From contig JAFXUJ010000002.1 in assembly GCA_017525025.1 (NCBI GenBank), positions 1-42,392 on the forward strand: a DNA stretch of 42,392 nt, written 5' to 3'. The stretch is from Elusimicrobiaceae bacterium (GTDB lineage Bacteria > Elusimicrobiota > Elusimicrobia > Elusimicrobiales > Elusimicrobiaceae). The notes beneath the pieces are model-generated. The model was given only the letters and a program-made list of their open reading frames with translations. It was not told the origin of the DNA and searched no databases. Positions 2,536 through 37,218 of this stretch are shown here, in pieces. The translations under genes and the position numbers were made by a program. The number at the start of each line of letters is the position of its first letter. The first letter of the stretch is position 1.

Positions 2536-3303
2536 ATGGCAGTTAAGCAAACAAAAAAATTGAATGACAGCAGCGTAACAGACGTTACGACCGTCAACAG
2601 CACCGACCGAATCCTTATGCGGGATAGCAGCGGTAAGTTAATCCCCATTTCGCTTGCAAACCTGAAAGCGGCTATGATGGGAGGTGTAGACCAAAACGTA
2701 CAGATGGACGGCGTTTTCATTATGTACCATGACAACAGCAACGACGCGCCCCGAATGGTTAAGCCACACAAGTGGCCAAGCCTACAGAGTGCCGGGCAAA
2801 TTGCCGACGGCGTAGTAGTCGTAGAGGGCGGCAAAATCTTAGTCGTAGCACCTACCGAATCGTCTATGACATGGAGTAGCGCAGCCGTTAGCGGTGGCGG
2901 CGTAACCACGTCAGACCGCGTTACGGCTTTGAACGATTGGGCCGGTAAGCAGAACACGGCGGCGCAAATTACGCACGCCGAATGTAGTAGCAACGCCTAC
3001 GCCCCCGGATATTGCGCAAACTACAGCCGCGTAAACGCCAACTCTAAGGGCTTGACAGCCGGTAAGTGGTGGCTACCATCTTTGGGCGAAATAATGATGA
3101 TTTACGCCAACATGACAAAGATTAACTACGCGCTTTCGCTGATTAGTGGTGCAACGCAGTTAAGCGAAAATTGGTATTGGACTTCGACCGAGGGCAGCGC
3201 GCCGAACGCCTGGATTCTGGGCCTCGACAGCGGCATCGCCGGCAACCTCACTAAGGCATCGTACCCGACCAGAGTTCGGCCCGTCTCAGCATTTATTGCT
3301 TAA
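2536..3303 (+). CDS. DGR variable protein VP1 (C-type-lectin/FGE-like), tail-associated
   Basis: 255 residues. The N-terminus (DSSVTDVTTVNSTDRILMRD, then a GKLIPISLANL segment) looks like an attachment module common in phage tail proteins. The C-terminal half has the pattern of the formylglycine-generating-enzyme/C-type lectin fold used by DGR targets (WWLPSLGE, WYWTSTEG, RVRPVSAF). Residues 217-252 are encoded by variable repeat VR1, which matches the TR at 3847-3953 except at template adenines. The gene lies directly upstream of avd, TR and RT, the classic DGR order. The likely role is a diversified ligand-binding tip protein. The receptor is unknown. Confidence 0.9.
   Translation: MAVKQTKKLNDSSVTDVTTVNSTDRILMRDSSGKLIPISLANLKAAMMGGVDQNVQMDGVFIMYHDNSNDAPRMVKPHKWPSLQSAGQIADGVVVVEGGKILVVAPTESSMTWSSAAVSGGGVTTSDRVTALNDWAGKQNTAAQITHAECSSNAYAPGYCANYSRVNANSKGLTAGKWWLPSLGEIMMIYANMTKINYALSLISGATQLSENWYWTSTEGSAPNAWILGLDSGIAGNLTKASYPTRVRPVSAFIA
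3185..3291 (+). repeat. DGR variable repeat VR1
   Basis: 107 bases, the same length as the TR at 3847-3953. All 16 differences fall at positions that are A in the TR (changes to G, T or C); all template C, G and T positions are conserved. The mutated positions cluster in AAY codons. The 3' end (agagttcggcccgtctcagca) is invariant in TR, VR1 and VR2 and would serve as the initiation-of-homing region. Confidence 0.95.
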
Positions 3304-3323: not shown

Positions 3324-3345
3324 GTTCCCGGCGAAAGCCGGGAAC
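3324..3345 (+). other. Hairpin with GAAA loop downstream of VR1
   Basis: Perfect 9-bp stem (gttcccggc / gccgggaac) closed by GAAA, 32 bases after VR1. The 16-base core cccggcgaaagccggg is repeated exactly after VR2 (19267-19282) and is absent after the TR. In the Bordetella phage DGR, a short hairpin with a GRNA tetraloop downstream of VR helps target recognition. No T tract follows, so a rho-independent terminator is less likely. Confidence 0.7.
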
Positions 3346-3366: not shown

Positions 3367-3756
3367 ATGGCAGACAAACCGATTAAGTTAGTATCTACTA
3401 CGCAACTATACTTAGATTGCAGGGCGTTACTCAATGAGATATTAGACGTTACGCCCAACTTTCCGCGTGACTATAAGTTTACTATCGGCGCAGAAATGCA
3501 AAGACTATCTGTTAGTCTGATAGAGTTAGACGCAGCGGCCTACATGGATAAGACGGGCAGGGTACAAAACTTAATGAGTTTCAAGGCCAAGTTTGAGACG
3601 CTTAAAACCCTAATCAGGGTAGCGGGCGAAAGACGTTGGATTAAGGGAATAGGGCGGCACGCACATATCATTGAACTGATGGACGCAATAGGAAAGCAAA
3701 GTACAGCGTGGAAAAACTCACTTACAAAAGCGAGTAAGCCGGAATCGGAAAGTTAA
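3367..3756 (+). CDS. avd: DGR accessory variability determinant (Avd)
   Basis: 129 residues, the usual Avd size, predicted mostly alpha-helical and rich in Arg/Lys, as expected for the four-helix-bundle, nucleic-acid-binding Avd family. Segments such as LYLDCRALLNEIL, RDYKFTIGAEMQRLS and FETLKTLIRVA resemble this bundle. It sits between the VP1 gene and TR/RT, the standard avd position. Avd forms a pentamer that binds the DGR reverse transcriptase and is needed for mutagenic cDNA synthesis. Identification rests on pattern, length and context. Confidence 0.85.
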   Translation: MADKPIKLVSTTQLYLDCRALLNEILDVTPNFPRDYKFTIGAEMQRLSVSLIELDAAAYMDKTGRVQNLMSFKAKFETLKTLIRVAGERRWIKGIGRHAHIIELMDAIGKQSTAWKNSLTKASKPESES

Positions 3757-3996
3757 GACTAACCGAGAGTGCAAGTTTCCGTAATAAATGGGGCTTATAC
3801 CGTCATTTACGGTTAAGAGCAAGTTAATAGGCCACAGATTGCGAGCCGACCGAGAACAGCGCGACGAACGCCTGGAATCTGAACCTCAACAACGGCAACG
3901 CCAACAACAACACTAAGGCATCGAACACGAACAGAGTTCGGCCCGTCTCAGCACTTCTTACGGAAGCAGAAACGTAGTATATAAACATTGTCAGAT
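3757..3996 (+). ncRNA. DGR template RNA region (avd-RT intergenic)
   Basis: The 240-base gap between avd and RT holds the TR and has no convincing coding frame. In characterised DGRs the TR is transcribed as a structured RNA including flanks on both sides. Here only 43 bases separate the TR end (3953) from the RT start (3997), so the downstream spacer of the functional RNA probably extends into the RT gene. An imperfect inverted repeat upstream (ccgtaa near 3779 with ttacgg near 3808) may be part of the fold. RNA ends are not visible. Confidence 0.45.
3847..3953 (+). repeat. DGR template repeat (TR)
   Basis: 107 bases. In the VP frame it would encode 12 AAY (Asn) codons plus two ACG codons. 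AAC and AAT cannot become stop codons by mutation of their A bases alone, a hallmark of DGR templates. It contains a run of three AAC codons (3902-3910) where VR2 has gained a codon. The A bases in ACT, AAG and AGA near the 3' end are unchanged in both VRs. Confidence 0.95.
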
Positions 3997-5178
3997 ATGG
4001 TAACGACTGATGGACTTTTAGAAGCGTATTACGATTGCCGACGGAGCAAACGCCACACGGCAAGCGCGATAGTCTATGAAATGGACTACGAAACTAAACT
4101 TATCGCCTTACGCGATAGGATTAACAACCGCGTCTATCAGCCCGGAAAGTCTATTTGCTTTGTCGTAACGCGGCCCCGGTATCGTGAAGTGTTTGCCGCC
4201 TCCTTTGAAGATAGAATAGTACACCACTATATAGCCCTACGGTTAGAGCCGCTTTTTGAGTTGGTATTTAGTCCGCGTACTTTTAATTGCCGTAAGGAGA
4301 AAGGGCAGCTTTACGGTATCAATATTCTAAAGCAGGATATTAGGGATTGCAGCGAGAACTACACCCGGACTTGCTGGATTATGAAATTAGACCTACAGGG
4401 CTTTTTTATGAGTATCGACAAAGCCCTGTTAGCCGACCTGATAGACCGCTTTATTACCCAATACTATACCGGCAGCGACATAGACGATTTGCGCTACCTT
4501 TGCCGGATAGTCGTTTTGCATTGCCCCGAAAAGAATTGCGAGAAACACAGCCCGGCGCATTATTGGGATTACCTACCCGCCAATAAATCGCTATTCACTA
4601 ACGGCGAGGGCAAAGGCGTTGCTATCGGAAACCTGTTTGCGCAACTATTCGCCAATTTCCTGTTAAATGAATTTGATTGGTTTTTAGAGAAAATAGGTAT
4701 TAAGTATCATGGCCGATACGTAGATGATTTCTATTGCATACACCAAGATAAGGCCGTACTACTTAACGCCGTGCCATTGATACGGGATAAGTTGGCCGAA
4801 TTTGGCCTAACCCTGAATCCTAAGAAATTCTACTTTCAGCATTACACCAAGGGCGTAGAGTTTACCGGGGCAGTCGTAAAGCCCAAAACGTCGTATTGTT
4901 GCAACCGCACAATAACCAACTTTATTGCGGCCGTCAGGCGGTTAAACAACGCCAAGACATTACGGCAGGTTGAGCACGCCGTTTGCTCTATAAACAGTTA
5001 TTTGGGCTTGCTACGACACCACAACGAATACGGTACGCGTAAGAAAGTCTTAGGTATGATAGAGCGACACGCCTACGAATACATCTACATAAAAGGCCGC
5101 TATGAGATAGTGGCGTTAAAGAACAAATATAAGAAGAGAATACAGACATATAAAAGAATACGTGATGGCGATTATTGA
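3997..5178 (+). CDS. DGR reverse transcriptase
   Basis: 393 residues. ATG at 3997 is preferred over TTG at 3988. RT motifs: catalytic Asp in KLDLQGFFMSID (D132), IGNLFAQ (residues 210-216, the DGR form of RT motif 4, with AQ where many DGR RTs have SQ), YVDDFY (241-246; catalytic Asp pair), then the thumb-side LNPKKFYFQ and GVEFTG. No maturase, RNase H or integrase domain is seen. The enzyme copies the TR RNA into cDNA with errors at adenines, with Avd. The last bases overlap the next small gene (ATG at 5165). Confidence 0.95.
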   Translation: MVTTDGLLEAYYDCRRSKRHTASAIVYEMDYETKLIALRDRINNRVYQPGKSICFVVTRPRYREVFAASFEDRIVHHYIALRLEPLFELVFSPRTFNCRKEKGQLYGINILKQDIRDCSENYTRTCWIMKLDLQGFFMSIDKALLADLIDRFITQYYTGSDIDDLRYLCRIVVLHCPEKNCEKHSPAHYWDYLPANKSLFTNGEGKGVAIGNLFAQLFANFLLNEFDWFLEKIGIKYHGRYVDDFYCIHQDKAVLLNAVPLIRDKLAEFGLTLNPKKFYFQHYTKGVEFTGAVVKPKTSYCCNRTITNFIAAVRRLNNAKTLRQVEHAVCSINSYLGLLRHHNEYGTRKKVLGMIERHAYEYIYIKGRYEIVALKNKYKKRIQTYKRIRDGDY

Positions 5179-8586: not shown

Positions 8587-9120
8587 TTATTGTACTACCT
8601 TGCGGCCATCCCGTATTACTATCCCGGTGGCAGCGTCAGGCGTTGGCAGTTCCGTACCGTTGAGGCCGTAGGCTTTGCCCTTTGGGGCATCCATCCGGGC
8701 GGCATTAACGCCCGCCGACGTATCTTTGGCGAGCATGATAGTACCGTTACCGTCATACGTGGTTAGCGTCATTGAGCCGTCGGCAAATTCCTTAATCCTG
8801 AAATTGACTATACTTTCGTTTCCATTCCAAGGCAACAGGTGGAGAAAGTATTTATCTGTTTTGGCTACCGTTACCCAATAGCCTTTGAAAAACACGTCTA
8901 CCGTTTCCGTACCGTCGAGATAGGTAAACTTAGTATAATTGCCGTCGGCAAATTGTACGCTTTGCATTGCGCCCCGGCTTTGGCCGTTGAACGTACCAAA
9001 CGAGCCGGTAACATTCCAAGTGCCTAACAACCCCAATTCGTCTAAACCGAAAATGTAGTTTTGGGCGTTGGCCGTCAGGCATACCAAGGCCAACGTAAGG
9101 GCTAAATATAGTTTCTTCAT
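8587..9120 (-). CDS. Secreted cargo protein (lysogenic-conversion candidate)
   Basis: 177 residues with a clear Sec signal peptide (MKKLYLALTLALVCLTANA, cleavage before QN). The body (LLGTWNVTGSFG..., then YTKFTYLDGTE and FRIKEFADGSMTLTTYDG) has beta-strand periodicity like small lipocalin-type domains. The C-terminus GIVIRDGRKVVQ resembles the short C-terminal tails of secreted Bacteroidales proteins. It lies between integrase and repressor on the lysogeny strand, so expression from the prophage is plausible. Role in the host envelope is inferred; the molecular function is unknown. Confidence 0.65.
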   Translation of the reverse strand: MKKLYLALTLALVCLTANAQNYIFGLDELGLLGTWNVTGSFGTFNGQSRGAMQSVQFADGNYTKFTYLDGTETVDVFFKGYWVTVAKTDKYFLHLLPWNGNESIVNFRIKEFADGSMTLTTYDGNGTIMLAKDTSAGVNAARMDAPKGKAYGLNGTELPTPDAATGIVIRDGRKVVQ

Positions 9121-9523: not shown

Positions 9524-9555
9524 TTTGGAAGTATAAACTATTCTGTTTACCTTTG
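9524..9555 (+). promoter_or_regulatory. Early promoter (Bacteroidetes consensus)
   Basis: TTTG (9524-9527), 20 bases, TAccTTTG (9548-9555). This matches the Bacteroidetes -33/-7 consensus. Transcription should start near 9561 and run through the leader terminator into the early operon. Confidence 0.8.
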
Positions 9556-9635: not shown

Positions 9636-9663
9636 AACTGCAAAGATACGGCAGTTTTTCTTT
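9636..9663 (+). terminator. Leader terminator / attenuator before the early operon
   Basis: aactgc (9636-9641), 9-base loop, gcagtt (9651-9656), then TTTCTTTT. It lies about 75 bases after the predicted start and 55 bases before the first early gene. A terminator between a promoter and its operon suggests attenuation, antitermination, or a short leader RNA of roughly 100 bases. No second consensus promoter is seen after it. Confidence 0.6.
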
Positions 9664-9717
9664 TCCGCCAAAGGTATAAGTAAGTAAATAAGTAATTTTA
9701 ACTAAAATTTGTCGATT

Positions 9718-15284: not shown

Positions 15285-15686
15285 ATGACACAGAAAACAG
15301 ACAATAACGAGCCGTTGACTATAGACGTTGCGACCGAAGCCGTAGAAGCGGAAATAGGCGTTACCGTCGAGTTATGGAAAAAGGAGCGTAAGGCGGCATC
15401 CGACAAACTGGAGAAAGGCCGTAGACTAAAGCGCACACCATTTGAGGCTATCGAGGAAAAGGGCTACTTAGACCCTAAGACGATGTACGACGAATATCAA
15501 AGAATCCAAAACCGGGAATCGCGTTTGTCGGCATCCGAGAGAGAGGTTATTTGCAGCATCGTAGAAACGGCTATGCGTACCGTCTTTGCCCGTAAGATTG
15601 ACGAAGCGAGAAAGGCCGGAGAGGTTAAGCCCGGAATCCAAAAGAAAAAGAGAACCAAGAAAGCAACCCCTAAAGCAAAGAAGTAA
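15285..15686 (+). CDS. Hypothetical protein with basic tail (133 aa)
   Basis: Charged helical protein (VELWKKERKAASDKLEKGRRL...), ending in a Lys-rich tail (KKKRTKKATPKAKK). Its last base is the first base of the polymerase start codon (TAATG). It may bind nucleic acid and work with the polymerase; unproven. Confidence 0.6.
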   Translation: MTQKTDNNEPLTIDVATEAVEAEIGVTVELWKKERKAASDKLEKGRRLKRTPFEAIEEKGYLDPKTMYDEYQRIQNRESRLSASEREVICSIVETAMRTVFARKIDEARKAGEVKPGIQKKKRTKKATPKAKK

Positions 15687-17641
15687 TGCGAGAATTAGGA
15701 ATAGACATAGAAACGTACAGCAGTAACGATTTGGTTAATTGCGGCGTTTACAAGTACGTTGAGGCCCCGGACTTTGCTATATTGCTTTTCGCGTATAGTG
15801 TTGATGGCGGGCCGGTGCTTTGCGTTGACTTAGCACAGGGCGAGAAATTGCCCGACGATGTATTTGCAGCCCTGACAGACCCGGACGTTATCAAGACCGC
15901 GTTTAACGCCGCCTTTGAAAGAATCTGTATTAGCGTCTATTTCTTTGGGGGTAAACTCTTAGACCCGGCGCAATGGCGTTGTACGATGGTATTAGCCGCC
16001 CGGATGGGCTTACCGCTTTCGTTGGGACAATGCGGCGAGGTGCTACGTTTGGCAGAGGGCAAAATGACAGAGGGTAAGGCCCTGATTAGATACTTTAGCG
16101 TACCCGCGCCAAAGACAGGCAAACGGCATCTACCAAGCGACGCGCCCGACAAATGGCAGGTATTCAAAGAGTACAATATTAGAGACGTTGAGGTAGAACA
16201 AGCCATTAAGAAAAAGGTACAGCGTCTAAAGCCCGCCGCCTTTGACGAAGATTTGTACGTAGCCGACCAAGAAATTAACGACCGGGGCGTGATGATAGAC
16301 CGCGTTTTGGTAGATGCAGCCGCCCGGTTTGACGAAGAGTATAAGGCCGAACTACTGAAACAGGCGCAGCAGCTTACCGGCATGGATAACCCAAACAGCC
16401 CGGCACAGATTAAGGATTGGCTACACAAGGTAACGGGCTTTACCGTTGCAAGTCTCAACAAAGCCAACTTAGACGATTTGGATAAGAAACTTATCTATTG
16501 GCCCAAGGCGCAGCAGGTTTTGGCTATACGCCGGGAAATGGGTAAGACCTCTAACAAGAAATACGAGGCTATGCAGAAATGCGTCTGTAACGATGGCCGA
16601 ATACATGGACTTTTGCAGTTTTGCGGCGCAGCACGTACAGGCCGATGGGCCGGTAGGTTGGTGCAGGTGCAGAACCTACCGCAAAACCATTTGGAGAGTT
16701 TGGACTACGCCCGCAGTTTGGTACGTCAGGGCGACTTAGAAGAGTTTGAACTAAACTACGGTAACGTCACTTTCGTACTTAGCGAGTTGATACGCACGGC
16801 GTTTATTGCCGCGCCCGGCCACACTTTCCACGTTTGCGACTTTTCGGCTATCGAGTGCAGGGTTATTGCATGGTTGGCCGGTGAAGAATGGGTATTGGAC
16901 GTATTCAGGACTAACGGCGACATCTATTGCGCCAACGCCTCTAAGATGTTCAAAGTACCTGTAGAGAAGCACGGACAAAACGCGGAACTACGCCAAAAGG
17001 GAAAGATTGCTACTTTGGCGTTGGGCTACGGTGGCGGCGTTTCGGCTTTGGAGGCAATGGGCGGTAGCCGGTTAGGACTTACCGAAGCCGAAGAAAAACA
17101 GATTGTAGCCCTTTGGCGTGACAGCAACCCGCGTATAGTCAAGATGTGGAGCGTTATAGAAAGGGCGGCTTTGACGGCCATTAAGACCGGCGAGAGCGTA
17201 ACGGTATATCGTAATATCGTTATCGGCAAGCGTTGGGGTATGCTTACTATTACACTACCGTCAGGGCGCACTATCTGTTACCCACGCGCCGAAATAGGCA
17301 CAGAGTATAACGACGGATGGAGAGGCGACCACGAAATAATAGAGTACGAGGGCCTTAACCAGACTACGAAGAAATGGGGCAAGGTACGTACCTACGGCGG
17401 TAAACTTACCGAGAACATAGTACAGGCCGTAGCCCGTGACATCTTAGGCATCGTAATACTACGCGCAAAGGCCGCAGGGCTTAACGTCGTTTTCCATATT
17501 CACGATGAAATAATAGTAGAGGCCACGCCCGACCAAACTTTGGCCGACGTTGAGGCCCTGTTTAGCAAACCGATTGAATGGTGCAGAGACCTACCCCTGA
17601 AAGGTGCAGGGTACACTACGCCGTACTATCTCAAAGACTAA
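15686..17641 (+). CDS. Phage family A DNA polymerase with 3'-5' exonuclease
   Basis: 651 residues, typical of phage PolA. The exonuclease domain starts with GIDIETYSS (Asp, Glu). Polymerase motif A is VCDFSAIECRVIAWLAG, motif B is RQKGKIATLALGYGGGVSAL, motif C is VFHIHDEIIVEA. All key acidic residues are present. It replicates the phage genome, with the clamp, VapE-like protein and helicases encoded downstream. Confidence 0.95.
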   Translation: MRELGIDIETYSSNDLVNCGVYKYVEAPDFAILLFAYSVDGGPVLCVDLAQGEKLPDDVFAALTDPDVIKTAFNAAFERICISVYFFGGKLLDPAQWRCTMVLAARMGLPLSLGQCGEVLRLAEGKMTEGKALIRYFSVPAPKTGKRHLPSDAPDKWQVFKEYNIRDVEVEQAIKKKVQRLKPAAFDEDLYVADQEINDRGVMIDRVLVDAAARFDEEYKAELLKQAQQLTGMDNPNSPAQIKDWLHKVTGFTVASLNKANLDDLDKKLIYWPKAQQVLAIRREMGKTSNKKYEAMQKCVCNDGRIHGLLQFCGAARTGRWAGRLVQVQNLPQNHLESLDYARSLVRQGDLEEFELNYGNVTFVLSELIRTAFIAAPGHTFHVCDFSAIECRVIAWLAGEEWVLDVFRTNGDIYCANASKMFKVPVEKHGQNAELRQKGKIATLALGYGGGVSALEAMGGSRLGLTEAEEKQIVALWRDSNPRIVKMWSVIERAALTAIKTGESVTVYRNIVIGKRWGMLTITLPSGRTICYPRAEIGTEYNDGWRGDHEIIEYEGLNQTTKKWGKVRTYGGKLTENIVQAVARDILGIVILRAKAAGLNVVFHIHDEIIVEATPDQTLADVEALFSKPIEWCRDLPLKGAGYTTPYYLKD

Positions 17642-18231: not shown

Positions 18232-18501
18232 ATGGAAGAAAAAGTAAAAGTTTGCGTAGAAGTTGATAAGCAGTTTATCCGCGAAGTCATGGTAGCGGTA
18301 GGCATTACAGCCGCCGACCCCAAGGCCGCTAACAAGTTGCTCGAAAAGATGGGTAACGAAATTGTCTTAGACGAAGAAATGATAGACGATGAAGATAAGA
18401 GCAAGGAAATGCGCTTTACCTTTGCGGCTATCGCTATCGGTGCAGCGGCTAAAATGGTAGACGCGGAAGAGACAGCAGAGAAACAAAACCATAAAGAATA
18501 A
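18232..18501 (+). CDS. Hypothetical acidic protein (89 aa) upstream of VP2
   Basis: MEEKVKVCVEVDKQFIREVM start, acidic middle (LDEEMIDDEDKSKE) and an alanine-rich helix (FAAIAIGAAAKMV). It ends 6 bases before the VP2 start and so may be co-translated with it. No domain recognised. It might be a VP2 partner. Confidence 0.6.
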   Translation: MEEKVKVCVEVDKQFIREVMVAVGITAADPKAANKLLEKMGNEIVLDEEMIDDEDKSKEMRFTFAAIAIGAAAKMVDAEETAEKQNHKE

Positions 18502-18507
18502 AGCATT

Positions 18508-19239
18508 ATGACAGAGAACCAAGAATTAAAGTTGCAACTTTTGGATAAGTTCGCAAACATCGAAAAGCCGGAAACGGTAGACTTTTGTAAGGCCGCTTTC
18601 GATTGGATAACCGAAGAGCCGATAGCAAAGCCAAAGGCCCCGGTAAGGGATGGAATAGCCAACGGCCCTTGCGGTATCATGGAAGAGTTACCCGATGGCA
18701 TCTACTACGTTTTGGCCGACGGCAGCGTAGTACCGTTCATTCCCGATATGGGCGTAGATGGCAGCTTAGACGGTAGCCAAGTAAGATACGTAGGTATCAA
18801 GTGGGGTAGCCGTAGCCTCAAAGTGGCTTTGCACGACGCAGCGGATGGCGAAGAGATTACGCTAACGTCAGGTAAGGACACAACCAAATACGACGGTTAC
18901 AAAGACAACTATTTGGACGCGGTAGCCGATTGGAACGGCAAGGCCAACACCGAACACCTAAAAGCCATTGGACTTAACAAGGAAATCGTTTTGGCCGACG
19001 GCGAGTATATCCCAAGTTTGGGCGAAATGTACCTTATCTATCTTAATCGTAAGGCACTTAATCAGGCTTTGGAACTGATAGGCAGCGACCCGATTAAAGA
19101 CGATTGGTATTGGACTTCGACCGAGGGCAGCGCGTCGCGCGCCTGGCGTCTGTACCTCCCCAGCGGCTACGCCTACTACTACGGCACTAAGGCATCGAGC
19201 CCGAACAGAGTTCGGCCCGTCTCAGCATTTATTAGTTAG
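18508..19239 (+). CDS. Second DGR variable protein VP2, encoded in the replication module
   Basis: 243 residues. The C-terminal part matches VP1 (PSLGEMYLIY, DDWYWTSTEG, RVRPVSAFIS) and has the C-type-lectin/FGE-like DGR target pattern. Residues about 204-240 come from VR2. The N-terminus is unlike VP1: an acidic helical start (TENQELKLQLLDKFANIEKP), then GIYYVLADGSVVPF and VRYVGIKWGSRSL. It has no tail-attachment domain, signal peptide or membrane span. It lies between polymerase and clamp genes, so expression is probably early and the product cytoplasmic or released. Target and function unknown. Confidence 0.9.
   Translation: MTENQELKLQLLDKFANIEKPETVDFCKAAFDWITEEPIAKPKAPVRDGIANGPCGIMEELPDGIYYVLADGSVVPFIPDMGVDGSLDGSQVRYVGIKWGSRSLKVALHDAADGEEITLTSGKDTTKYDGYKDNYLDAVADWNGKANTEHLKAIGLNKEIVLADGEYIPSLGEMYLIYLNRKALNQALELIGSDPIKDDWYWTSTEGSASRAWRLYLPSGYAYYYGTKASSPNRVRPVSAFIS
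19118..19227 (+). repeat. DGR variable repeat VR2 (distal target)
   Basis: 110 bases, about 15 kb from the TR. 17 differences from the TR, all at template A positions, plus one extra codon: after GCC the TR has AAC AAC AAC ACT while VR2 has TAC TAC TAC GGC ACT. Upstream and downstream fixed parts are shared with VR1. Confidence 0.95.
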
Positions 19240-19265: not shown

Positions 19266-19283
19266 GCCCGGCGAAAGCCGGGC
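19266..19283 (+). other. Hairpin with GAAA loop downstream of VR2
   Basis: 7-bp stem gcccggc / gccgggc closed by GAAA, 38 bases after VR2. Its 16-base core is identical to the one after VR1 (3325-3344 region) and absent after the TR. It is a probable DGR target-recognition structure, though similar GC hairpins also occur at non-DGR gene junctions here. Confidence 0.65.
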
Positions 19284-19864: not shown

Positions 19865-20036
19865 CAGACTAACCGGCCAACGTGAAATCATATCCGGGGC
19901 CTGTAGCAAGGAAAACGCCGATGCTATCCGCGCCCGCATGATGGCCACTAAGCCGGGAAAGAGACCCTACACCTACCCGCTAACGGTAGAGTACCCGAAA
20001 CAACTTAATTTATTTACAAAGCAGTTAGATTTATGA
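19827..20036 (+). CDS. Hypothetical protein (69 aa) upstream of the clamp
   Basis: MNENKKYCVTAINRLTGQRE start, ends FTKQLDL; stop overlaps the clamp start (ATGA). The tail LNLFTKQLDL resembles a clamp-binding QL-type peptide (consensus QL[S/D]LF), and the neighbour is the clamp gene, but this is only suggestive. Confidence 0.6.
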   Translation: MNENKKYCVTAINRLTGQREIISGACSKENADAIRARMMATKPGKRPYTYPLTVEYPKQLNLFTKQLDL

Positions 20037-21229
20037 ATTTTCAGATAGACAGGAATACACTATTACGAGCGTTGGAACGGACACGTAACGCCGTAATCAC
20101 ATACCGCGAAACCTATAAGCAAGGCGGTTGGTTTGATGTGTTTAAGTGCTATATATTTACGGCTGATTGCGACCAACTCACTATAGAAACGAGCAACAGC
20201 GAAATTTATATGCGCGAGACGGTAAGCATAGGAAACCCGACAGCGGATAAAAAGACGTTTGCCGTTAATGCCAAACAACTTATATCGGCCATTAAGTCGT
20301 TAGACGGCCAGAGTTTAGAGTTTGACGTATTGGAATATCAGGTTATCGTCAGGCACTCAATAGGTAGTTTTGCCTTGCCTATATTTGAGGGCATCGAGGA
20401 CTACAGCGCACGAAGAAAACCGGCCATTAACTACGATACGGCGCAGCATATCGAAATAGAAGCACCGGGGTTACGCTCTATCCTGAATCGCCTTGCGTTT
20501 GCAATGGCCGACGATGATTTACGCCCGGTAATGAATGGCGTAGTTATTAGCATGAAAAAGGAGCATACCGATTTCGTAGCATCCGACGGCCACGTATTAG
20601 CGAAAATCCGTAAGCAGTCTATTACGACAGAGAAACCGGCAGACGTTGTTTTGCCGCGCCGTATTATCGGTATTTTGCAAAAGGTACTACCGACTACCGG
20701 CTTTGTCGAAATGGACTTTAACGCTTTCGATGTGAATTGGCCAACCGACAGCAAAGAGCCACAGCCCGCCCCGGTATATCAGATAATCGTAGACGGTTTA
20801 ACCATTGTAGGCCGACCAATAGAAGGCCGCTACCCTAACTACGACAGCGTGATACCTACGCGATTTAGCAAAGGTTTTACTACCGACCGCGTAGCCTTGA
20901 TAAAGTCGTTAGAGCGACTTAGCCAATTCACAAACAATTCAGGGCTAATAACTATACACCTGAATAATGGCAGCGTAAAGATGGATGCAGCCGACTACGA
21001 TTTTTCGCTTTCGGCTACCGAGGTTTTGCCCTGTAGTTACTACGGCGACCCGTTCAAATTCGGTTTGCAGGATTTCCGTTTAATCAAGATGCTAAAAAGC
21101 ATAGTTGCGGCTACAGAGGCTACGTTTAGAATCGTAGACCAAAGCCGGGCGTTTATCATTGAGCCGGGAGTGCAGCCAGATAGCGAAGAAATAACCATGC
21201 TAATAATGCCGATGTTAATTAACGACTAA
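20033..21229 (+). CDS. dnaN: DnaN-like DNA polymerase sliding clamp
   Basis: 398 residues, normal for a beta clamp. Three-domain pattern: FAVNAKQLISAIKSL (domain 1), VASDGHVLAKIRK (domain 2 end), EGRYPNYDSVIP (conserved clamp motif, start of domain 3), then FKFGLQDFRLIKMLK and the C-terminal MLIMPML corresponding to the MPMR motif. A ring that holds the polymerase on DNA. Phage-encoded clamps of this type are uncommon. Confidence 0.85.
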   Translation: MNFQIDRNTLLRALERTRNAVITYRETYKQGGWFDVFKCYIFTADCDQLTIETSNSEIYMRETVSIGNPTADKKTFAVNAKQLISAIKSLDGQSLEFDVLEYQVIVRHSIGSFALPIFEGIEDYSARRKPAINYDTAQHIEIEAPGLRSILNRLAFAMADDDLRPVMNGVVISMKKEHTDFVASDGHVLAKIRKQSITTEKPADVVLPRRIIGILQKVLPTTGFVEMDFNAFDVNWPTDSKEPQPAPVYQIIVDGLTIVGRPIEGRYPNYDSVIPTRFSKGFTTDRVALIKSLERLSQFTNNSGLITIHLNNGSVKMDAADYDFSLSATEVLPCSYYGDPFKFGLQDFRLIKMLKSIVAATEATFRIVDQSRAFIIEPGVQPDSEEITMLIMPMLIND

Positions 21230-21240
21230 TCCCGGAGCGT

Positions 21241-22158
21241 ATGAAAGTAAAGACCAAGCCCGCCAACTTTGACGATAAGTTACAACACAGCATCGAACTA
21301 CTACAGAAGTCCGAGGCGTTGGCTTTGCGCTACTACGACAAAGGGTTTTACCTTGCGTTTAGCGGTGGCAAAGACAGTCAGGCACTTTATTACGTAGCAA
21401 AGTTGGCGGGCGTTAAGTTTGAAACTCACTACAGCCTAACCACGTTAGACCCGCCGGAGTTAGTACACTTTATCCGTAGGGAATACCCGGACGTAATCGT
21501 AGACCGGCCAAAGGTGACGTTTGCGAAATTATGCCTACAGAAAAAAGCCCTACCTACCCAGCTTATGCGCTTTTGTTGTCAGGAACTCAAAGAGACCAAA
21601 GGGGCTAACACGGTAACGCTTACCGGGGTACGCCGTCAGGAATCAGTACAGCGTAGCCACAGGAACGAAGCCGAAATAGTGACCCGCCGCAAAGACGATA
21701 TGTTTAGCGGCTCTTATGAGCAATTCGACCAATTTACACGAAGCAAAGAAGTTGAGGGCGTGCAATGTATTAGGGGAAACGATAAGATAGTTATTAACCC
21801 TATTATAGAATGGACTGAAAACGACGTTTGGTATTTCCTGAATGAAGTAGTACACGCTAAACATTGTGTATTATACGATAGAGGTTGGAAACGCATAGGC
21901 TGTTTGTTTTGCCCGATGGCATCCCAAAAAGAGATAGTTAAGCAGGGGGGGGATTACCCGAAATACAAAGCCCTGATAGTACGTACAATTCACAGACTAC
22001 GCGAAATAGGTTATATGAATCTTTACAAAGACCTTACCGACGAAGATATTTTCGAGTGGTGGATTAGTAAAGAGAATCTGAAAAAATGGTATTGTAGCCA
22101 TAAGTTACAGGGAAACTTATTTAGCGACGATGAATTAAACGAAATGAAGATAATATGA
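21241..22158 (+). CDS. PAPS reductase / DndC-like PP-loop ATP pyrophosphatase family protein
   Basis: 305 residues. P-loop SGGKDSQALYYVAKL near residue 41, GVRRQES in the centre and a C-terminal Cys pair (GCLFCPM) are the family hallmarks. Phage members are often of unknown role; some homologues take part in DNA sulphur modification (DndC), but no other Dnd genes are seen. A run of 8 G (21945-21952) encodes GG in KQGGDYP; a slip would truncate the protein. Stop overlaps the next start (ATGA). Confidence 0.8.
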   Translation: MKVKTKPANFDDKLQHSIELLQKSEALALRYYDKGFYLAFSGGKDSQALYYVAKLAGVKFETHYSLTTLDPPELVHFIRREYPDVIVDRPKVTFAKLCLQKKALPTQLMRFCCQELKETKGANTVTLTGVRRQESVQRSHRNEAEIVTRRKDDMFSGSYEQFDQFTRSKEVEGVQCIRGNDKIVINPIIEWTENDVWYFLNEVVHAKHCVLYDRGWKRIGCLFCPMASQKEIVKQGGDYPKYKALIVRTIHRLREIGYMNLYKDLTDEDIFEWWISKENLKKWYCSHKLQGNLFSDDELNEMKII

Positions 22159-35817: not shown

Positions 35818-37218
35818 ATGAGTAAGCCAAAGTTCAATTTCCGCGAAGCCTACGAGCGGATTAGTCAAATCAAAGGCCGCCTTAACGAGATGGCGGAGAA
35901 TCTCGAAAGTGATAAGGAGCGCGAGGCATACACCGAGGCCGAGCAGGGCGAAATTAAGCAGCTTTCCCGCGAGTTGGATATTCTCGAAATGAAGATTAAG
36001 GCCAACACCCCGACTATCGAGGTAATGCGCGAGGAAGATATACCCTACGCAAACGCCAAGGTACGCGAGTGCTTAGACAAGGGCCAGCGTTTCGAGTTGA
36101 AGATTAGCCGTGCCGTAGCACAGTCTTTCGGCGGCAACACCTCTACTTACGCCAGCGGCCTTGCAGGTACGAACCCCGCCGGGCTGACTACGCACGACAT
36201 CGTAGAGCCACTTTATAACAAGACTATTCTTTCGGCCATTGGCGCACCGTTGCTTACCGGCCTGAAAGGTAATCACCAGTGGCCTATCGTTGAGGCTTTC
36301 CACGCCACAATTAACGATGAGGGCGCAGAGTTGGGCGACACCAAGATACCTATTAACAAACTCATTGCGAAGCCGGAGCGTTTGGGTATCGCCGTGCCTA
36401 TCACCCGTGAGGCCCTGAATGAGACCGACAACCTTGTGCAGTTGGTGGCCACGCAGTATATGCCGGTAGCCATTGCCGAACTGATGAACAAGATTACGTT
36501 CAGTCAGACCAAGGTAAACGGCTCTACCGACCTTGTAGGCCCATTCATTCCCGCCAACATGGTGGCCAAGAACAAAAAGACCTACACCGGCGCAACTCCT
36601 ACCCTTTCCGAACTTGTTGGCGTTAAGACCGCTATTCTTTCGCACAACATCAAGGGCGAGGGCCTTTGCTACGTTATGAGCGAGGTAACTAAGGGCAATT
36701 TGGAGGCTACCCCGAAGTGGTCAGGTGCTAACACCGCTATCGTTGACGAAAACGGTAAGATTAACGGTGTACCCGTATTCACCACCAACGAAGTACCCGA
36801 CGGCCAGATTTACGTCGGCGCGTTTAAGTACGCACCGCAGGGCCTGTTTGGCGACATGGTGTTTATCGTAGACCCCTACAGCCAGGCACGAAAGAACGCT
36901 ATCGACTTTGTGCTTAACGTGGACTACGCTATTAGCGTATTGCGTCAGGAGGCTTTCGCCGTTCTTTCGCAGATTGGCGTTTTCCTTGATAAGTCCGAGT
37001 TGACTTTGACCGTTGGCGACACCTACGACCTGACGGCTACCGTATTCCCCGTAGGCACAGCCGTTACGTGGGCAAGTAGCGCAACCGCAAAGGCCACCGT
37101 CGCAAATGGTAAGGTAACAGCCGTTGCAGCCGGTACGTCTAACGTAACCGCATCGTTCACGTTTGGCGGTCAGACCTACACCGCAACTTGCGCCGTGACC
37201 GTTCAGGCCGCAGGCTAA
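35818..37218 (+). CDS. Major capsid protein (HK97 fold) with C-terminal Ig-like domain
   Basis: 466 residues. N-terminal coiled-coil delta/scaffold region (about 1-100), then the HK97 core (ASGLAGTNPAGLTTHDIVEPL..., HQWPIVEAFHATINDEGAELGDTK, LGIAVPITREALNET). The last about 72 residues (LTLTVGDTYDLTATVFPVGT onward, VTWASSATAKATV) are a BIG2-type Ig-like domain. Phage capsids use such domains to decorate the head and bind mucus or glycans. The delta region is probably removed by the upstream protease. Confidence 0.9.
   Translation: MSKPKFNFREAYERISQIKGRLNEMAENLESDKEREAYTEAEQGEIKQLSRELDILEMKIKANTPTIEVMREEDIPYANAKVRECLDKGQRFELKISRAVAQSFGGNTSTYASGLAGTNPAGLTTHDIVEPLYNKTILSAIGAPLLTGLKGNHQWPIVEAFHATINDEGAELGDTKIPINKLIAKPERLGIAVPITREALNETDNLVQLVATQYMPVAIAELMNKITFSQTKVNGSTDLVGPFIPANMVAKNKKTYTGATPTLSELVGVKTAILSHNIKGEGLCYVMSEVTKGNLEATPKWSGANTAIVDENGKINGVPVFTTNEVPDGQIYVGAFKYAPQGLFGDMVFIVDPYSQARKNAIDFVLNVDYAISVLRQEAFAVLSQIGVFLDKSELTLTVGDTYDLTATVFPVGTAVTWASSATAKATVANGKVTAVAAGTSNVTASFTFGGQTYTATCAVTVQAAG

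Follow-up and report, generated by a model that had tools for sequence, protein, structure and literature searches.

VP2, a predicted remote DGR target encoded among phage replication genes and conserved in unrelated phage lineages

The window, by which we mean the whole stretch of DNA analysed (1-42392, 42,392 nucleotides), is an incomplete phage contig: tail-region ORFs are truncated at both ends, a terminal repeat is absent, and close relatives of the phage lie on contigs of 52-55 kb. Its major capsid protein (35818-37218) carries a C-terminal Ig-like (Big_2) domain. Near copies of the window phage (L037, L038) were found in bins labelled Saccharibacteria, whereas the phage genes are of the Bacteroidales type, so that the window contig may be misbinned.

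The phage encodes both a DGR reverse transcriptase (RT) and an Avd accessory protein, together with a template repeat (TR) and an RT-proximal target, VP1 (Table 1). This RT is the single RVT_1 match in the assembly. It reads GNLFAQ where the canonical motif is GxxxSQ, and motif-based DGR finders may overlook it. A first-pass annotation of the DNA had proposed a second target, VP2, at a distance of about 15 kb from the RT and between the polymerase and clamp genes. Our analysis bears this out: the ORF has the extent then given, it lies between the genes for DNA polymerase A (PolA) and the sliding clamp, the RT ends 13.3 kb away from it, and the spacing from TR to VR2, the variable repeat of VP2, amounts to 15.3 kb. 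VP2 is thus located not in the RT-adjacent tail module but in the replication operon, on the strand that also carries the tail genes. Defence genes adjoining VP2 are not evident in the window; there is only a PAPS-reductase-like ORF within the replication operon (21241-22158), whose BrxP-like match in PADLOC (E 6e-13) is weak evidence of a defence gene.

Table 1. Positions in the window of the DGR components, of VP2 with its parts, and of neighbouring landmarks
Feature	Position	Strand	Remarks
VP1, RT-proximal DGR target, beside collagen-like tail fibre gene	2536..3303	+	VR1 3185-3291
GC hairpin with GAAA loop, 3' of VR1	3324..3345	+	
Avd accessory protein (bAvd)	3367..3756	+	PF22296 E 1e-24
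TR, template repeat	3847..3953	+	37 A of 107 nt; without trailing hairpin
DGR reverse transcriptase	3988..5178	+	RVT_1 E 6e-17, phrog_1423 E 4e-76
Candidate early rightward promoter, exact Bacteroides -33/-7 type match, next to repressor	9524..9555	+	
DNA polymerase A (PolA), upstream landmark of VP2	15686..17641	+	DNA_pol_A E 1e-26
Small ORF	18232..18501	+	ends 6 nt upstream of VP2 start
VP2, predicted remote DGR target protein, 243 aa, ATG start, acidic (pI 4.7)	18508..19239	+	Lcl_C E 5e-4, phrog_4245 E 1e-10
N-terminal two-helix module of VP2, residues 3-35	18514..18612	+	AF2 helices 3-16 and 24-35
Flexible/disordered linker, residues 38-58	18619..18681	+	pLDDT <50
C-type-lectin-like domain, residues 62-243	18691..19236	+	Foldseek on AF2 model
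VR2, variable repeat of VP2	19118..19227	+	all 17 differences from TR at adenines
IMH-like 3' end of VR2, GTTCGGCCCGTCTCAGCA + TTTATT	19210..19233	+	
GC hairpin 3' of VR2, GCCCGGC-GAAA-GCCGGGC, target-recognition type	19266..19283	+	
Sliding clamp, downstream landmark of VP2	20033..21229	+	DNA_pol3_beta E 1e-13

When one extra in-frame codon is allowed in the alignment, VR2 differs from TR at 17 positions, all of which are adenines in TR (hypergeometric p = 7e-10, calculated on a TR with 37 A and 70 non-A). The same holds for the 16 differences between VR1 and TR (p = 3e-9). An ungapped repeat search had made VR2 appear only 60% similar to TR, because VR2 carries one extra codon; this artefact was removed by the in-frame codon gap. 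At positions 19166-19186, VR2 contains one AAC-derived codon more than the present TR, whereas VR2 of most other phages has the same length as the TR of its own phage. This suggests slippage, which may have occurred in the (AAC)n run of TR or of the cDNA product. At the 3' end, VR1 and VR2 have TTTATT in common where the aligned TR reads CTTCTT. Furthermore, a perfect, GAAA-looped GC hairpin trails VR1 as well as VR2 and is absent after TR. In BPP-1, a 7-10 bp GC stem with a GRNA loop located 4-34 bp after VR is important for target recognition (Guo 2011, PMC3240598). With adenine-only changes, an IMH-like end and the hairpin, VP2 thus carries the sequence hallmarks of a functional target.

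The same features recur among the homologues of VP2. A GC hairpin of at least 7 bp (7-10 bp) is found behind the stop codon of 35 out of 45 VP2 genes, where shuffled sequences lead one to expect 1.0. For the 25 phages or isolates of which TR, VR1 and VR2 were all in hand, about 38% of the template adenines are changed in VR2 relative to the phage's own TR, and the non-adenine differences amount to 28 in total, mostly in the IMH. Where the TRs of different phages vary at non-A bases, VR2 tracks the TR of its own phage. Judged from its sequence, VP2 is a genuine second target of the window phage's DGR.

VP2 homologues were gathered from viral contigs, bacterial genome contigs and phage records, several of the loci being metagenome fragments. 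In all 34 loci that have both genes, VP2 directly follows PolA on the same strand at a distance of 21-1334 nt; the independent count is somewhat lower, as the 34 include the near-identical loci of the Bacteroides uniformis phages Bacuni F1, F2 and F4. Phages of about 100-111 kb, namely BS-TP1 (PQ571274), G021-G023 and prophages in G025-G030, also encode VP2-type proteins that carry the N-terminal module of VP2; in them the gene occupies an accessory region outside the tail module. The DGR of BS-TP1 lies in the tail region and comprises the RT gp25, the Avd-like gp26 and a VP1 of 2187 aa, gp27; its VP2 is gp76, about 50 kb from TR, at a great distance from the tail genes and on the strand opposite to them. 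The same layout exists in G021-G023, G025, G028 and G030. In the stretch compared, the mismatches between template and VR2 are all at adenines, with 9 in BS-TP1, 9 in G021, 14 in G022 and 10 in G023. The view that VP2 stands outside the tail region, as proposed in the first-pass annotation, is strengthened by its homologues in these unrelated phages of about 100 kb.

No TR was found up to 10 kb from the VP2 genes of the large phages, the true TR and DGR being about 50 kb off, and an RT-like ORF beside these genes was discarded as the DGR RT since it is a UG27 RT. Two loci with VP2 and seemingly no DGR (L041, L045) are apparent cases only, for the contigs end before the expected place of the cassette. 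As a separate observation, a UG27-type RT (PADLOC RT_UG27, E 1e-231) is encoded downstream of the VP2-type gene in the large phage L011 (11614-14294), followed by a non-coding stretch of about 1.3 kb rich in inverted repeats, for which Rfam gave no confident match. In the large phages L015, L046, L049, L053, L054, L056, L057, L076 and L077, too, a UG27-type RT follows the VP2-type gene at a distance of 1-7 kb.

Taken together, the comparison identifies VP2-type genes as predicted remote, non-tail DGR targets in no fewer than two phage lineages that are not related to each other. VP2 is an old conserved family whose place in the replication operon has been kept in the lineage of the window phage. 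The conserved position directly behind PolA in the 34 loci could be taken to mean that VP2 takes part in replication or regulation and has to match either the phage's own polymerase or host proteins of replication or transcription, which vary. We consider this quite improbable: the large-phage VP2 genes are far from the replication genes and coexist with a different polymerase set, so that adjacency to PolA is not general, and the diversification of VR is better suited to a partner that changes fast than to a conserved one.

An AlphaFold2 model of VP2 based on 43 sequences (mean pLDDT 84) consists of an N-terminal two-helix module, a linker and a C-type-lectin-like domain on which VR2 sits. 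The best PDB matches in Foldseek are 4eps, a B. ovatus fimbrial tip (E 2e-4), and 8q4e, the C-terminal domain of Legionella Lcl (E 1e-3). What had been said earlier about the relation of the two targets is confirmed: their lectin-like C-termini are common to both, with 38% identity over 144 residues, while the N-termini are unrelated in sequence, and the poor structure model of VP1 (pLDDT 47) permits little comparison of folds. Likewise, the absence of a signal peptide or membrane span noted for VP2 was upheld, as neither is suggested by the hydropathy profile (best 19-residue Kyte-Doolittle mean 1.14, first 30 residues -0.06). VP2 proteins are acidic, with a median pI of 4.75, and VP1 proteins are basic (8.57).

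The N-module sets the family apart. Over all collected loci its HMM matches VP2s exclusively, among 393 Bacteroidales genomes it occurs in only 2, both of which have VP2 loci, and a search of phage records yielded no matches beyond VP2s. Known relatives were sought without a convincing result, the viral structure library giving two short helix matches. Relative to the window VP2, the proteins at L006:5097-5792 and L007:2332-3030 have a diverged N-module and a nearly identical core. Between near-identical phages, dS of VP2 is 0.84-0.89 in the N-terminal part versus 0.23 in the core, suggesting that the N-module, as the putative docking part, is exchanged in a modular fashion. In a tree of the lectin region preceding VR, 33 VP1s form a single clade with full support, and the 50 VP2s are all on the other side. 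However, one group of large phages has 5 VP1s that fall near the VP2s on a long branch, and a single clean split between VP1 and VP2 is consequently seen in only 38% of bootstrap trees. The agreement of VR1 and VR2 within a phage is 0.523 versus 0.511 by chance (367 of 2000 permutations as high, in a test of low power). As VR1 resembles the VR2 of its own phage no more than that of other phages, nothing points to a ligand common to both.

Exact matches to the Bacteroides-type promoter number 5 in the window, compared with 1.5 expected. One is next to the repressor (Table 1), and a second exact -33/-7 match is found at 9641-9672 on the opposite strand, both being located where the rightward early genes begin; between 9555 and VP2 there is no exact match of this type. 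Scans for sigma-70 promoters and terminators returned matches no commoner than in shuffled sequence. From gene layout and promoter position, early expression of VP2 is likely. The repressor is also adjoined by a gene on the minus strand (8587-9120) whose small product seems to have a signal peptide. A copy with 49% identity ends a Prevotella prophage, beside host genes (L162:7420-7953), making it a candidate lysogenic-conversion gene.

VP2 might alternatively serve competition between phages, as an intracellular or lysogen-made superinfection exclusion factor that would bind variable proteins made by competing phages or prophages. An integrase is indeed present in the window phage and many relatives, and the UG27-type RT found 1-7 kb away in large phages is a PADLOC-listed defence candidate. 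Nevertheless, such a role is rather unlikely, given that the assembly has no second RT and that the window VP2 belongs to the lytic replication operon, beyond the repressor, where production in a quiet lysogen is unlikely.

Natural variants indicate how the gene changes. Compared with its close relative L003, the window has 10 differences in VP2 over 610 positions before VR and 24 over 107 within VR, and the 72 nt downstream are identical. For the isolated B. uniformis phages Bacuni F1 and F2, the comparison gives 16 VP2 SNPs, all of them in VR, and one SNP in VP1; for F1 and F4 it gives 0 SNPs in VP2 and 18 in VP1. All three phages have an identical TR. Rewriting of VR2 thus appears, from these variants, to be active in nature. 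Values of dN/dS are 0.06-0.25 in the lectin core of VP2 and exceed 1 in most VR comparisons, the pattern of a protein under purifying selection outside VR, with VR being rewritten. That VP2 is a by-product, a stray VP1 paralogue without function to which the cassette still homes, is highly improbable for this reason: although one TR serves both genes and duplication can give rise to two-target DGRs, the constrained core and the retention of N-module, synteny and hairpin over deep divergence speak against it.

A virion role is the main rival to our preferred reading, according to which VP2 would act in the cytoplasm. VP2 would then be a second adhesin, virion-borne or ejected, and diversified for a wider receptor range despite its location among replication genes. 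Its nearest solved folds, 4eps and 8q4e, are surface adhesins, which weighs against a non-tail function, and a virion protein needs no signal peptide; tail fibres likewise do without one. Both Bacuni targets were read as fimbrial-tip-like adhesins by Hedzet 2021 (PMC8143477), and phage DGRs serving a pair of receptor-binding-like targets have a precedent in the tentaclins (PMC10743442). On the other hand, the gene is outside the tail module in two unrelated lineages, and on the other strand in the large phages; the N-module is absent from all other proteins of these phages, and the acidic VP2s contrast with the basic VP1s. Moreover, F1 and F2 have a common host and F4 another (Hedzet 2021, PMC8143477), so that the same host goes along with different VP2 VRs and the same VP2 with different hosts. 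In these three phages, therefore, the change of host accompanies the VR of VP1 and not that of VP2. We regard the adhesin explanation as unlikely, though it carries appreciable weight.

Our proposal that VP2 acts in the cytoplasm starts from one cassette of TR, RT and Avd, which would rewrite two lectin-fold proteins, the tail-side VP1 and the remote VP2, by adenine-specific mutagenic retrohoming, with the N-module, linker and C-lec scaffold conserved and rewriting confined to VR. As far as sequence comparison can tell, this two-target rewriting within an old family under purifying selection is close to certain. VP2 would be made early and remain in the cytoplasm, the two-helix module could serve for docking or oligomerisation, and the VR face would bind a host factor that varies from strain to strain. 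Since VP2 would then come into play once the DNA has entered, progeny whose genome has a better VR2 would gain from it only in the next cell. This is what would be expected if an intracellular barrier has to be overcome, the likeliest being an anti-phage defence protein or its sensor. The sharing of the second target by many related and some unrelated phages also points to a role that is probably other than gripping the host surface.

These parts of the proposal differ in how firmly they can be held. Action outside the virion, in the cytoplasm, is moderately probable. If this applies, a defence-related partner is rather probable in turn, being favoured by the action after entry, by the UG27 RT, RtcB and Lar-like neighbours in large phages (a Lar-like antirestriction gene and RtcB are near VP2 of BS-TP1) and by the precedent of Quimbyvirus. 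A soluble, non-tail VP2 working on a strain-variable host factor is the best explanation as a whole, which we nevertheless advance tentatively, its probability being somewhat short of even. The wider proposition of a shared, dedicated cytoplasmic hypervariable receptor, with a two-helix dock and a DGR-rewritten lectin face, in at least two unrelated kinds of Bacteroidales phage is possible but doubtful. If true, this receptor would be an adaptive counter-immune protein, by which phages evolve binding to strain-variable defence proteins on the fly. A conserved non-tail target would in any case mean that phage hypermutation reaches beyond tail adhesins, and the cultured members of the family (Bacuni F1, F2 and F4, and BS-TP1) make intracellular diversification directly testable.

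The idea of a second DGR target of this kind is not new (Hedzet 2021, PMC8143477; Benler 2021, PMC8008677). Two-target Bacuni DGRs and the non-structural target of Quimbyvirus are already published, and the window VP2 joins them. In a literature search that covered few subscription papers, we found no description of the Bacuni and large-phage remote targets as one family with its own N-module, position and hairpin, nor any literature on UG27 RTs, virion proteomics of DUF1566 or BS-TP1 itself. A large survey of DGRs states itself that remote targets are undetectable to it (Roux 2021, PMC8144416). The class is therefore under-counted, and this blindness may be the cause of the missing family description.

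Among the known systems, the closest is the remote target of Bacuni F1, F2 and F4 (PMC8143477). It is homologous to VP2, with 42% identity over its length, and like VP2 it follows PolA, is one of two targets on one TR, and has a VR that is rewritten between isolates. The window phage differs from Bacuni in the extra VR2 codon and in the sliding clamp behind VP2. Hedzet 2021 (PMC8143477) read both Bacuni targets as adhesins and ascribed host range to the RT-proximal VR. In Quimbyvirus, a non-structural second DGR target occurs among defence-related genes (Benler 2021, PMC8008677); by its description it resembles VP2 as a C-lec protein outside the structural module with adenine-specific variation. 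BS-TP1 shares with Quimbyvirus the opposite-strand layout and a tRNA ligase nearby, whereas the window VP2 is on the tail-gene strand and among replication genes. Mtd of BPP-1 (PMC3240598) has a C-terminal VR, an IMH and a GC hairpin with a GRNA loop after VR, just as VP2 does; it is, however, a tail-fibre adhesin beside the RT, and VP2 is remote and without a recognisable tail module. Finally, the lectin-like fold of the VP2 C-terminal domain is that of B. ovatus BACOVA_04982 (4eps) and of the C-terminal domain of Legionella Lcl (8q4e), but these are surface proteins, whereas VP2 has no signal peptide and carries the two-helix N-module.
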